Source: Limibacter armeniacum
GTDB lineage: Bacteria > Bacteroidota > Bacteroidia > Cytophagales > Flammeovirgaceae
DNA length: 64,000 bases
Direction of reading: 5' to 3'
Assembly: GCF_036880985.1 (NCBI RefSeq)
Contig: NZ_JBAJNO010000009.1
Location: 3,260,501-3,324,500 of the forward strand
The notes under the pieces are model-generated. The model was not told where the DNA came from. It saw only the letters and a list, made by a program, of their open reading frames with translations, and searched no databases. Every line of letters starts with the position of its first letter. Positions within the stretch are counted from its first letter, which is position 1. This document shows positions 6,227 through 40,767 of the stretch, piece after piece. A program made the position numbers and the translations under genes.

Positions 6227-6370
6227 TTATGAATATGTAAATAGATGTAAGCAAAGCAATGGCTTATATCCTATTTTTCAGAAACATTTTTATATTAGTC
6301 AGTTGTCTTGATTATCAATTGAAAAGGTAATAGGATAACTACTTTTTTGGGTTTTACTAACAGACAGACT

Positions 6371-13749: not shown

Positions 13750-13834
13750 AGAGGGTTGGCGGAGTGGTCGAACGCGGCGGTCTTGAAAACCGTTGTGCCG
13801 AAAGGTACCGGGGGTTCGAATCCCTCACCCTCTG
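13750..13834 (+). tRNA. tRNA-Ser(TGA), copy 1
   Basis: An 85-nt serine tRNA with a full cloverleaf: acceptor AGAGGGT/ACCCTCT, a 3-bp D stem GCG/CGC, and anticodon stem GCGGT/ACCGT around loop CTTGAAA (anticodon TGA, reading TCN codons, chiefly UCA). It has a long class-II variable arm (GTGCC-GAAA-GGTAC) and T arm GGGGG-TTCGAAT-CCCTC. The discriminator is G, as expected for SerRS. The CCA is not encoded (CA follows the discriminator). The first pair A1-U72 is less common than G1-C72. Confidence 0.96.
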
Positions 13835-13891
13835 CACATACAGACCAGTTCGGTCTTTGATGATCGAATGAAGCAACTAAAAAAATTATCC

Positions 13892-13976
13892 AGAGAGTTG
13901 GCGGAGTGGTCGAACGCGGCGGTCTTGAAAACCGTTGTGCCGAAAGGTACCGGGGGTTCGAATCCCTCACTCTCTG
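13892..13976 (+). tRNA. tRNA-Ser(TGA), copy 2
   Basis: Identical to copy 1 except for one compensatory acceptor-stem change: pair 5-68 is A-U (AGAGAGT/ACTCTCT) instead of G-C. Anticodon TGA, long variable arm, no encoded CCA. It lies 57 nt after copy 1. Confidence 0.96.
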
Positions 13977-14017
13977 CAATAAGACCTTGATCATGATGAT
14001 GATCTAAAAAACCATCC

Positions 14018-14102
14018 AGAGGGTTGGCGGAGTGGTCGAACGCGGCGGTCTTGAAAACCGTTGTGCCGAAAGGTACCGGGGGTTCGAATCCCTCACCCTC
14101 TG
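14018..14102 (+). tRNA. tRNA-Ser(TGA), copy 3
   Basis: Sequence-identical to copy 1 (AGAGGGT/ACCCTCT acceptor). It lies 41 nt after copy 2. The spacer before it is very similar to the spacer before copy 4 (shared AAGACCTTGATCATGAT). Confidence 0.96.
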
Positions 14103-14140
14103 CATATAAGACCTTGATCATGATATTGATCTAAATCCCT

Positions 14141-14225
14141 AGAGAGTTGGCGGAGTGGTCGAACGCGGCGGTCTTGAAAACCGTTGTGCCGAAAGGTACC
14201 GGGGGTTCGAATCCCTCACTCTCTG
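14141..14225 (+). tRNA. tRNA-Ser(TGA), copy 4
   Basis: Sequence-identical to copy 2 (AGAGAGT/ACTCTCT acceptor). It lies 38 nt after copy 3 and is directly followed by the cluster's terminator. Confidence 0.96.
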
Positions 14226-14263
14226 CACAAAGCGATAATCAAAAGATTATCGCTTTTTTTGTG
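14226..14263 (+). terminator. Terminator of the tRNA-Ser cluster
   Basis: A long stem (CACAAAGCGATAATC pairing with GATTATCGC and the T-rich end) with an AAAA loop and a T7 run on the plus strand begins one base after the discriminator of copy 4. Confidence 0.9.
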
Positions 14264-37524: not shown

Positions 37525-38790
37525 ATGATGCAAAACAACTTTAAAGCCATATCGCTTTCTTACAAGTCAGCACCACTTGAAGTAAGAGGGTCTCTTTCTG
37601 TAGGAGAAGGAGAATACGGTACCTTGTTGGAGAAAGTCAAAGAAGTCCTTGGAGTTCAGGAAGCACTAGTAGTGTCTACTTGTAACCGCACAGAGGTATA
37701 TTATTCATCAGAAAATGATAAGTCAGAAGAACTGATCAAGTTACTTTGTGCTTTGAAAGGCTTAGACCCTTCGGAGTATGCACAGTACTTTCTGAATATA
37801 CCGAACAAGCACGAGGCGCTTCAGCACCTTTTTAGGGTATCAATGGGACTAGAGTCTCAGGTTGTTGGTGATTTGCAGATCTCCAATCAGATCAAACGTT
37901 CTTACCAGTGGACAGCGGATACAGAAATGGCAGGACCGTTTTTGCACCGTCTGATGCACACGGTGTTCTTTACTAATAAGAGAGTGACACAGGAAACACC
38001 ATTTCGTGATGGCGCTGCATCTGTATCGTATGCAGCTGTTGAGATGGTGGAAGAGTTAACAAACGATCTCCTAGATCCTAAAGTATTAGTAGTAGGCGTA
38101 GGCGAAATTGGTGCAGACGTTGTACGTAACCTACAAAATACAGACATCACGAATGTTCAGATTACCAACCGTACTTTCTCCAAGGCGGAAGAATTGGCAA
38201 ATGAATGTGAGTTTGAAGCCATTCCATTTGAGAATATATGGAAGGCAGCAAAAGAAGCTGATGTTATCATCTCATCTGTAGCAAAAGCAGATTTCTTTGA
38301 CAAGGCAAACGTAAAGGATCTGGATGTGTTGGCATTCAAATGCTTTATGGATTTATCTGTTCCAAGAAGTGTAGCCACAGACGTAGAATCGATTCCAGGT
38401 GTGTTGGTATATGATATTGATGATATCAATACTCGCGCAACTAAAGCTTTGGAAAGAAGAAAACAGGCAATGCCTGATGTTGAGCGTATTATTGGAGAGT
38501 CAATTGAAGAGTTTGGCTCTTGGGCACAGAATATGGTATTCTCTCCAACAATTCAGAAGCTGAAGCAATCTTTGGAGGCGATTAGGCAAGAGGAAATTGC
38601 GAAAAGCATCAAAGACCTTTCAGATGAAGAAAGAGAGAAGGTGGAGAAGATTACGCTTAGCATTATGAATAAGATTATCAAGATTCCTGTACTGCAACTA
38701 AAAGCTGCTTGTAAAAGGGATGATGCTGATGCGTTAGTAGATGTGCTAAATGACCTTTTTGATTTAGAAAAGAAAGCACAAAAGAAATAA
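37525..38790 (+). CDS. hemA: Glutamyl-tRNA reductase
   Basis: A 421-residue enzyme that reduces glutamyl-tRNA(Glu) to glutamate-1-semialdehyde, the first committed step of C5-pathway tetrapyrrole synthesis. The nucleophilic cysteine is C53 in STCNRTEVYY. GLESQVVGDLQISNQIK and the NADPH-binding VVGVGEIGADVV segment follow in order, and the C-terminal dimerisation helices are present. Length is normal. No other hem genes flank it in the window. Confidence 0.96.
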   Translation: MMQNNFKAISLSYKSAPLEVRGSLSVGEGEYGTLLEKVKEVLGVQEALVVSTCNRTEVYYSSENDKSEELIKLLCALKGLDPSEYAQYFLNIPNKHEALQHLFRVSMGLESQVVGDLQISNQIKRSYQWTADTEMAGPFLHRLMHTVFFTNKRVTQETPFRDGAASVSYAAVEMVEELTNDLLDPKVLVVGVGEIGADVVRNLQNTDITNVQITNRTFSKAEELANECEFEAIPFENIWKAAKEADVIISSVAKADFFDKANVKDLDVLAFKCFMDLSVPRSVATDVESIPGVLVYDIDDINTRATKALERRKQAMPDVERIIGESIEEFGSWAQNMVFSPTIQKLKQSLEAIRQEEIAKSIKDLSDEEREKVEKITLSIMNKIIKIPVLQLKAACKRDDADALVDVLNDLFDLEKKAQKK

Positions 38791-38817: not shown

Positions 38818-38861
38818 AAAGCAATTGCATTGGAGTTTATGCCAAAGCAATTGCTTTTTTT
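38818..38861 (+). terminator. Terminator after hemA
   Basis: A 16-bp stem (AAAGCAATTGCATTGG / CCAAAGCAATTGCTTT, one mismatch) with an 8-nt loop and T7 on the plus strand, 27 bp after the stop. Confidence 0.88.
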
Positions 38862-38944: not shown

Positions 38945-39391
38945 ATGGAGGGGATAATTTTTATTGGAATACAGGCAAGTGGGAAATCAACATTCTATAA
39001 GGAAAGGTTTTTTAATTCACATGTCAGGATCAGTATGGATTTGCTCAATACAAGAAACAAGGAAAATCAATTTATAGAAAAGTGTATAGAGCTTCATCAA
39101 AGGTTTGTTGTAGACAATACAAACCCAACTGTAGAAGAGAGACAAAGGTATATCACCAAACTGAAGGAGAGAAAGTATAAGGTGATTGGTTATTTTTTTA
39201 AGTCCATTGTACAGGATTCCCTGTTCAGAAATCAAGGTCGAGTAGGCAAGGAGAAAATTGCGGAAGTAGGCATTTTATCTACTTATAAAAAGCTGGAATT
39301 GCCTTCTTTTCAGGAAGGTTTTGATGAGCTGTATCAGGTCGAGATCGTGGATGGAATGTTTGAAATCAAAAAATGGAAAGATGAAATTTGA
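38945..39391 (+). CDS. P-loop polynucleotide-kinase-like protein
   Basis: A 148-residue P-loop phosphotransferase. Walker A is GIQASGKST (residues 8-16). The early RISMDLL and later VVDNTNPTVEERQRYI segments match the T4-Pnkp/PNKP kinase group, in which the first Asp contacts the 5'-OH and DNTNP-type residues and a later Arg line the active site. There is no phosphatase domain. It overlaps the start of the Thg1-like gene by 11 bp (ATGAAATTTGA), indicating translational coupling and a shared process. The likely reaction is phosphorylation of RNA or DNA 5'-OH ends; a small-molecule kinase is not excluded. Confidence 0.8.
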   Translation: MEGIIFIGIQASGKSTFYKERFFNSHVRISMDLLNTRNKENQFIEKCIELHQRFVVDNTNPTVEERQRYITKLKERKYKVIGYFFKSIVQDSLFRNQGRVGKEKIAEVGILSTYKKLELPSFQEGFDELYQVEIVDGMFEIKKWKDEI

Positions 39392-40145
39392 CGATTTGGA
39401 TAAGAAAATGAGGGTATTTGAAACCTCACACGACTATTGTGTTCTGCCTAAAATATATATGGTCGCAAGGATTGACGGACGAAATTTTACAAGACTGACA
39501 AAAGAGGTTCATCAGTTTGAAGCACCATTCGATGAACGTTTCAGGGATTATATGGTACAGACAGTAGAGCACCTGATGCAATGCGGGTTCAAAGTGATCT
39601 ATGGGTATACGGAGAGTGATGAGATCTCCTTGTTGTTTGCCCAAAATGAAACGGTATTCTCAAGAAAGCTAAGAAAATACAATTCGGTGTTGGCAGGAGA
39701 AGCCAGTGCTAAATTTTCAATGCAACTGAATGATGTGGCAGCTTTTGACTGTAGGATTTCTCAGTTGCCAACAAAGGAAGATGTGATTGATTACTTCAGA
39801 TGGAGAAACGAAGATGCATTCAGGAATGCGCTGAATTCACATTGCTATTGGAACCTCAGAAAAAATGGTGCATCGGTGAAAAATGCAACCCGAAACCTGG
39901 AGGGAATGTCAGTTGCGGATAAAAATGAATTGCTTTTCAGTAACGGTATCAACTTCAATGATCTTCCAAATTGGCAAAAAAGAGGGGTCGGATTATATTG
40001 GAAAAGCTATCCATCTGACGGTGTAAATCCGAAAACCGGAGAAGTGGTACAGGGCGAAAAGAAAAAGATATGTATTGATTATGATCTTCCAATGAAGGAA
40101 AAGTATAGTGAGTTTATTCAAGCCATACTCGAGACAGAAGATTAA
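39381..40145 (+). CDS. Thg1-like protein (3'-5' nucleotide polymerase, tRNA repair)
   Basis: A 254-residue protein of the tRNA(His) guanylyltransferase superfamily. The metal-site aspartates are D32 in VARIDGRNFTRL and D80 in YTESDEISLLF. The fold continues with AFDCRISQLPT, HCYWNLRKNGAS, ATRNLEGMSV and a C-terminal basic KRGVGLYWKSY. It closely fits the bacterial Thg1-like proteins that extend RNA in the 3'-5' direction in a template-dependent way and repair tRNA 5' ends. The start was taken at the ATG at 39381, inside the end of the kinase gene; an upstream ATG at 39321 would only add shadow sequence. Thg1 enzymes act on 5'-phosphate RNA, so the upstream kinase makes sense. Confidence 0.9.
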   Translation: MKFDDLDKKMRVFETSHDYCVLPKIYMVARIDGRNFTRLTKEVHQFEAPFDERFRDYMVQTVEHLMQCGFKVIYGYTESDEISLLFAQNETVFSRKLRKYNSVLAGEASAKFSMQLNDVAAFDCRISQLPTKEDVIDYFRWRNEDAFRNALNSHCYWNLRKNGASVKNATRNLEGMSVADKNELLFSNGINFNDLPNWQKRGVGLYWKSYPSDGVNPKTGEVVQGEKKKICIDYDLPMKEKYSEFIQAILETED

Positions 40146-40174: not shown

Positions 40175-40767
40175 ATGAGACTAAAAGCACTCCTATTTGT
40201 AATTTTAAACTTGACCTTTCTTCAAGTAAGTTTCAGTCAGGATTCATTTTATTCAAATCTGGCGGAAGTGACAGTTTCCTTAACTCAGGATCAGGTAGTT
40301 TATGATCCTAGCTATTTTTCCATCACTTATCCAAATGGTGATGTGCCAAAAGGTAAAGGAGTGTGTACGGATGTGGTGATTAGGGCATATAGAAAATTGG
40401 GTGTTGACCTTCAGAAGGAGGTACGGTACATGAGGATATGGCAAAACACTTTGCTTTGTACCCTAAGGTATGGGGACTGAAAACTACTGACAAAAATATA
40501 GACCACAGGAGAGTACCTAACCTGATGAAATTTTTTGAGCGTCATGGAGAGGTATTAGCCATTTCTGATAATCCATCAGATTACCAGTCAGGCGATATTG
40601 TCTGTTGGAACCTTGGTGGAGCTATAACCCATATTGGCATTTTGGTAGATCAGAAATCTGATGATGGCATGCGGAATCTGGTAGTGCATAATATCGGATC
40701 TGGACAGGTAATGGAGGATATGCTTTTTGATTTTAAGGTGATTGGGCATTATCGGTATAAAAAATAG
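40175..40767 (+). pseudogene. DUF1287-family secreted protein broken by a 5-bp duplication
   Basis: A first frame (40175-40480) carries a signal peptide and the DUF1287 opening VVYDPSYFSITYPNGDVPKGKGVCTDVVIRAYRKLGVDLQKEV. It then goes out of frame. A second frame (used from ~40430 to 40767) continues with HEDMAKHFALYPKVWGLKT, NIDHRRVPNLMKFFERHGEVL, GDIVCWNLGGAITHIGILVD and VVHNIGSGQVMEDMLF. Removing one copy of the GGTAC-GGTAC repeat at 40420-40429 restores a 195-residue protein (588 nt). The protein is a predicted NlpC/P60-like or amidase-type fold with a Cys (CTDVV) and a His (THIG). It is a pseudogene, a phase-variable gene, or an assembly error. It lies 29 bp after the Thg1-like gene. Confidence 0.85.
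40420..40429. repeat. 5-bp tandem duplication (GGTAC x2)
   Basis: GGTAC occurs twice in a row. With one copy, codons read Q-K-E-V-H-E-D-M-A-K-H, exactly the DUF1287 core. The second copy shifts the frame by +5 (+2). Confidence 0.9.

Follow-up and report, generated by a model that had tools for sequence, protein, structure and literature searches.

Two overlapping genes of Limibacter armeniacum, one for a stand-alone kinase of the polynucleotide kinase (PNKP) type and the other for a Thg1-like protein (TLP), probably form a two-enzyme module for the healing of RNA 5' ends, a reading to which we assign a probability of about 0.72. The idea that such a kinase feeds Thg1 is not new, as it was published in 2010 by Anantharaman, Iyer and Aravind from gene-neighbourhood logic, with a PNK-family kinase recognized as the most persistent bacterial neighbour of Thg1, PNK proposed to make the 5'-phosphate substrate of Thg1, and RNA ligases noted among the neighbours (PMC2904730). 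The pair described here consists of the same two genes with the same proposed logic, and the 2010 pattern was found again, namely adjacent co-directional PNK and Thg1 genes across distant bacteria with RNA ligase neighbours in some members; no RNA ligase lies beside the pair of the window (the whole 64,000-nt stretch of DNA that was analysed). MACRO-domain genes, listed as neighbours in 2010, are outside the 25 commonest immediate-neighbour families listed here. The present analysis adds a confirmed instance, scale, an overlap rule, fold evidence and, beyond the 2010 neighbourhood (PMC2904730), linkage to RlaP, to Hen1/Pnkp, to HD-PNK/ligase and to RtcR, backed by counts and by a test of co-occurrence.

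No report of a published joint test of the kinase and the Thg1-like protein was found. Modular RNA-repair systems and RlaP are reportedly covered in a 2016 review by Burroughs and Aravind, so some of this wider linkage may already be in print. For bacterial Thg1-like proteins, whose role in the cell is considered open (PMC6471195), the conserved, coupled kinase together with the association with RlaP, RtcB and Pnkp/Hen1 provides a concrete, testable hypothesis. The host genome encodes all the candidate partners for this repair hypothesis, and a defined pathway from a 5'-OH through a 5'-phosphate to a reverse-polymerized end would serve RNA end engineering.

Gene pair in the window

The features of the locus are the following.

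37525..38790, + strand: hemA, glutamyl-tRNA reductase (PF05201/PF01488/PF00745), upstream neighbour outside the module
38818..38857, + strand: stem-loop and T run 3' of hemA, probable intrinsic terminator (-20.6 kcal/mol, z -3.4)
38945..39391, + strand: kinase gene, 148 aa, coding for the first of the two enzymes, a predicted stand-alone polynucleotide 5'-kinase of PNKP type
39381..39391, + strand: 11-bp overlap ATGAAATTTGA between the end of the kinase gene and the start of the Thg1-like gene
39381..40145, + strand: gene of the Thg1-like protein, predicted 3'-5' nucleotidyltransferase/polymerase, 254 aa, ATG at 39381 and stop at 40143-40145

The preliminary description of this DNA had reported a 148-residue kinase reading frame overlapping the start of the Thg1-like gene by 11 bp, and both frames and their shared stretch were confirmed at the coordinates above. 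The strong stem-loop with its T run after hemA, which was absent from the output of a simple terminator scanner, indicates that the pair is probably on its own transcript, hemA being separated from it by a probable intrinsic terminator. Downstream of the pair are an apparently frameshifted DUF1287 gene and a GNAT gene, neither with an evident connection to the pair. The DUF1287 gene (40175-40767) is apparently split into an N-terminal part (40175-40480) and a C-terminal part (40438-40767), which match consecutive parts of one profile.

The kinase

Fold and residues of the kinase point to a PNKP-type polynucleotide 5'-kinase with a predicted role in 5'-OH phosphorylation. By sequence, it matched AAA_33 (1.6e-6), the kinase part of the NCBIfam PNK-3'Pase model TIGR01663 (1.8e-10, under the cut-off of that whole-protein model) and mammalian PNKP in the PDB (4e-9, or 1.2e-20 with a 44-sequence profile), followed by the Pnkp of C. 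thermocellum, by fungal kinases, by PSTK and by T4 Pnk. The AlphaFold model (pLDDT 95.2, pTM 0.88) was superimposed on the mammalian PNKP kinase domain with Z 18.8 and an rmsd of 1.5 Å over 138 residues, and other matches were fungal kinases (Z 18.2-18.4) and the C. thermocellum Pnkp kinase (Z 18.0), while PSTK, zeta toxin and PFKFB reached Z 15.3 or less.

The motifs GIQASGKST, RISMD and VVDNTNP..R, which had been read from the translation earlier, were all found, and the protein possesses the Walker A motif GxxxxGKS/T, the catalytic Asp, DNTNP and the distal Arg of PNKP-type kinases. Twelve residues (G8, G13, K14, D32, T36, T59, R66, N96, R99, P120, E124 and G125) are invariant in 44 homologues, and G8, G13, K14, S15, D32, D57-N58-T59-N60, R66 and R99 showed 94-100% conservation. 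The window kinase resembles the kinase domains of mammalian PNKP and Clostridium thermocellum Pnkp in its fold (Z 18-18.8) and in possessing Walker A, the catalytic Asp and DNTNP, whereas it is a stand-alone enzyme in whose 148 residues no phosphatase or ligase domain was found. Neither the kinase nor the Thg1-like protein was recognized by the PADLOC models.

A substrate other than an RNA 5' end, such as a small molecule, the aminoacyl group on a tRNA (as with PSTK) or DNA 5' ends, could be imagined from the breadth of AAA_33 and from the fold shared with PSTK (Z 15), zeta toxin and sugar kinases. However, PNKP-type kinases scored clearly higher both in fold and in the profile search (1e-20 compared with 1e-7 for PSTK), and in other genomes the adjoining genes encode RNA enzymes, leaving such a substrate highly unlikely.

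The Thg1-like protein

The second protein of the pair contains PF04446 (1.1e-33) and PF14413 (8.4e-16) with the three metal-binding catalytic carboxylates D32, D80 and E81, which are 99-100% conserved in 109 homologues. In the PDB it matched the Thg1-like protein 5axk (5e-31), the M. acetivorans TLP, followed by THG1 (3otb, 2.4e-23) and the B. thuringiensis TLP (4kgk, 1.5e-20), and is thus nearer by E-value to 5axk than to BtTLP. Both domains and the catalytic residues are shared with the bacterial and archaeal proteins BtTLP, MaTLP and MxTLP, whose family repairs 5'-truncated tRNA in vitro, and the window protein differs from them in being accompanied by a dedicated kinase gene. In vitro, bacterial members of the family favour tRNA with a truncated 5' end, and by analogy the window protein would be expected to carry out templated 3'-5' repair on tRNAs that are both 5'-truncated and 5'-phosphorylated (PMC6471195, PMC3701042).

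Maturation of tRNA-His through the addition of G-1, as carried out by eukaryotic Thg1, is brought to mind by the family name and by the ability of TLPs to add G-1 opposite C73 in vitro. Nevertheless, both host tRNA-His genes found by homology search already encode G-1 opposite C73, whereas a eukaryotic-type Thg1 goes with a host tRNA-His lacking an encoded G-1, so that maturation by the Thg1-like protein would be unlikely or redundant; in addition, Thg1 is missing from 254 of 291 genomes of the host's order. This role has very little probability.

Among other tRNA genes, four tandem tRNA-Ser(TGA) genes at 13750-14226 of the window alternate between two versions, whose acceptor stems (AGAGGGT/ACCCTCT and AGAGAGT/ACTCTCT) show compensatory differences, and further tandem arrays in the host genome carry Asn (x4), Phe (x6) and His (x2) genes.

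Conservation of the pair and of the overlap

When a genome collection was scanned with the Thg1-like protein as query, an approach that favours close relatives, 80 loci at 54-78% identity were returned. These were assigned to Bacteroidota, Chloroflexota, Cyanobacteriota, Planctomycetota, Bacillota, Myxococcota, Pseudomonadota, Campylobacterota, Synergistota, Acidobacteriota, Verrucomicrobiota and others, with individual taxon labels that may be wrong, many of the loci being metagenome bins. Together with 33 loci from genome searches, the set comprised 113 Thg1 loci, including the window (L001) and at least one contig counted twice, and an intact co-directional kinase was present at 97 of them in about a dozen phyla. 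Strains of Sphingobacterium, Chitinophaga and Corallococcus are among the carriers of the pair. The preliminary description had named a pair not conserved in related genomes as what would speak against its proposal; this objection is not borne out, and with its recurrence in many phyla the pairing is far beyond chance.

The overlap of these 97 pairs was 11 bp in 68, 4 bp in eight and 14 bp in six. The figure of exactly 11 bp is in part a consequence of coding, as the kinase stop arises from the conserved Thg1 N-terminus M-[KR]-F-[DN] when this is written ATGAARTTTRA. With the Phe codon TTC at the Thg1 start, the kinase stop shifts and the overlap becomes 4 or 14 bp, and the usual retention of an overlap despite this shifted stop speaks for coupling being under selection. 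Through the overlap, the kinase and the Thg1-like protein are probably translated in a coupled manner and hence co-produced.

The tree mixes phyla, with 24 label changes compared with a minimum of 12, which suggests transfer but is not proof of it. The patchy distribution, the label changes in excess of strict descent, the plasmid copies, the location of some neighbours in defence loci and the occurrence of TLPs in jumbo phages would all suit a mobile anti-toxin or phage-conflict cassette that is kept because it reverses the damage done to tRNAs by toxins or suicide systems. On the other hand, the similarity to phage TLPs is far lower (29-34% among the matches listed, all <60%), no annotated kinase of PNKP type was seen beside Thg1 in the two phage neighbourhoods inspected, and the recognized neighbours in the window are not defence-like. 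A kinase scan of viral contigs, which was empty, counts against the cassette as well, and with the different and far less similar group formed by the phage TLPs it led to the rejection of a phage origin of the pair. The cassette reading, which concerns the reason for retention and is compatible with a 5'-end healing module, is possible, if on the improbable side.

Defence-like genes beside the pair or beside Thg1 were observed at L058:3948-5405, L040:1217-2680, L049:6776-8395 and L105:6886-8601, the types encountered being an RT-associated protein, an AbiEii/AAA_21 ATPase, a type I methylase and a mad3-like protein. A mirror-tree comparison of kinase and Thg1 identities (r 0.63) was set aside, since shared species history alone can yield such values. 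In two Oscillospiraceae bins (L089:2951-4729 and L092:4314-5996), the kinase directly upstream of Thg1 bears a long N-terminal leucine-rich-repeat region of the BspA type. Single in-frame TAG codons at different positions were found in Thg1 of L010 (stop 1948-1950) and L111 (stop 6232-6234), recalling the TAG of M. acetivorans Thg1, but gene decay or sequencing error is the more likely explanation.

Repair genes beside the pair in other genomes and elsewhere in the host

Immediate neighbours were surveyed at 65 loci, with one downstream and one upstream gene per locus where available (125 genes), and RNA_ligase was the commonest Pfam family (8/125). The preliminary description had suggested looking in other Bacteroidota for the pair and for a nearby RNA ligase; in Planctomycetes, the order PNK-Thg1-RNA ligase-HD-PNK was found at L066, L067, L072, L073 and L077. 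Other arrangements include Hen1, RlaP, RlaP, PNK, Thg1, Pnkp at L041, Pnkp beside or near the pair with Hen1 nearby at L048, L042 and L108, PNK-Thg1-DUF705-Hen1 followed by two nucleotidyltransferases on a Deinococcus plasmid (L164), and Thg1 followed by a nucleotidyltransferase on a Thiodictyon plasmid. In Thiothrix (L070), Thg1 adjoins RtcR, which is activated by broken tRNAs (PMC7790460), and RtcB is near. An apparent PNK-Thg1 fusion at this Thiothrix locus was rejected, as it fits a frameshifted kinase whose first half is by chance in frame with Thg1.

In several genomes the PNK-Thg1 pair directly adjoins the Pnkp/Hen1/RlaP operon, and Thg1 lies inside this operon in two order-mates of the host (G356 and G381; loci L020 and L158 of the latter are apparently the same contig as L109). 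Replacement of the kinase by Pnkp in these two genomes, whose Thg1 within the operon has no adjacent kinase, was considered and dropped because each has, elsewhere and unlinked to its Thg1, a stand-alone kinase of 42-43% identity.

In the window itself, HMMs built here for RtcB, Rnl, Pnkp, RlaP and Hen1 gave no match, bearing out the earlier remark that it contains no ligase, and neither Pnkp, Hen1 nor RlaP is adjacent to the pair. Ligases do exist elsewhere in the host genome, where candidates of three kinds are recognizable by sequence: a Hen1-Pnkp-RlaP-RlaP operon (about C9:1654254-1660001), an RNA ligase with HD-PNK after it (about C8:119902-121618), and RtcB, with three matches. The host operon is, in contrast to the contiguous cases above, a separate locus about 1.6 Mb from the pair on the same contig. 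The lack of physical linkage between the window's pair and any ligase in the host genome is a point against the healing module.

Co-occurrence in the host's order

Among the 291 genomes surveyed in the host's order, 37 possess Thg1; kinase and Thg1 occur together in 32, Thg1 only in five and kinase only in six (p 2e-31; n=291). RlaP was found in 35 of the 37 Thg1 genomes and in 64 of the 254 others (p 1e-16), and RtcB in 36/37 and 115/254 (p 1e-10), compared with 20/37 and 96/254 (p 0.07) for P450, which was the one control family. At the level of genera, the only level at which shared ancestry was controlled, the figures were 17/17 versus 34/98 for RlaP and 17/17 versus 49/98 for RtcB.

The five order-mates with Thg1 and no kinase and the six with kinase and no Thg1 also weigh against the module, and the latter, with metabolic or unrecognized neighbours where checked, suggest that the kinase may act alone. 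These solitary genes, the kinase unlinked to Thg1 in two order-mates and the activity of TLPs on 5'-phosphorylated tRNAs in vitro would accord with separate roles, in which the kinase serves ligases elsewhere through general 5'-OH healing, the Thg1-like protein performs quality control of naturally truncated 5'-phosphorylated tRNAs, and the operon is shared through a common physiological condition rather than a reaction chain. Separate roles are nonetheless unlikely, for exactly these two genes overlap across phyla, genomes of the order with both outnumber those with one by 32 to 11, and the Planctomycete operons have a second PNK beside the ligase, making the ligase there independent of the first kinase.

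Kinase copies without adjacent Thg1 were recorded at L168-L176, the neighbours checked, at L170-L172, L174 and L175, being metabolic or unrecognized. A divergent Thg1 group without adjacent kinase also occurs in the host's order (L155 in G329, L156 in G316, L177 in G344, L178 in G408 and L179 in G349), and in G316 and G329 the divergent gene has an RtcB gene at a distance of about 0.6 kb.

Proposed route of 5'-end healing

The preliminary description had proposed, from the DNA letters and their translations, that the kinase converts 5'-OH ends into substrates of the Thg1-like protein, and this route gains support from the fold, the catalytic residues, the conserved coupling, the linkage to ligase, Hen1, RlaP and RtcR, and the co-occurrence with RlaP and RtcB. 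For the two window proteins, we infer the following steps. A metal-independent RNase would leave a 5'-OH on an RNA, most likely a tRNA, which the PNKP-type kinase would phosphorylate, as its fold and residues suggest; the Thg1-like protein, going by the biochemistry of its family, would then use ATP or GTP to activate the 5'-phosphate and add the missing nucleotides in the 3'-to-5' direction against the paired strand. The outcome would be a tRNA whose 5' end is whole again, or else a 5'-phosphorylated end suited to Pnkp or Rnl, ATP-dependent RNA ligases that require a 5'-phosphate and are encoded elsewhere in the host genome. A break in the anticodon loop lacks the template that a TLP needs, and damage to the acceptor stem or within a stem therefore fits the enzyme better.

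RtcB joins 5'-OH ends and requires them, so the kinase would block or compete with it, and the correlation with RtcB does not describe a simple chain from kinase through TLP to RtcB. Shared exposure to RNA damage is a more likely cause of this correlation than one linear pathway. The presence of RlaP in nearly all Thg1 genomes and the gene order at L041 are consistent with a two-sided filling of gaps in toxin-cleaved tRNAs, in which RlaP-type nucleotidyltransferases would rebuild the 3' side and PNK-Thg1, through reverse polymerization, the 5' side before sealing by Pnkp or Rnl, an extension of the healing module that is offered tentatively and is rather doubtful at present.
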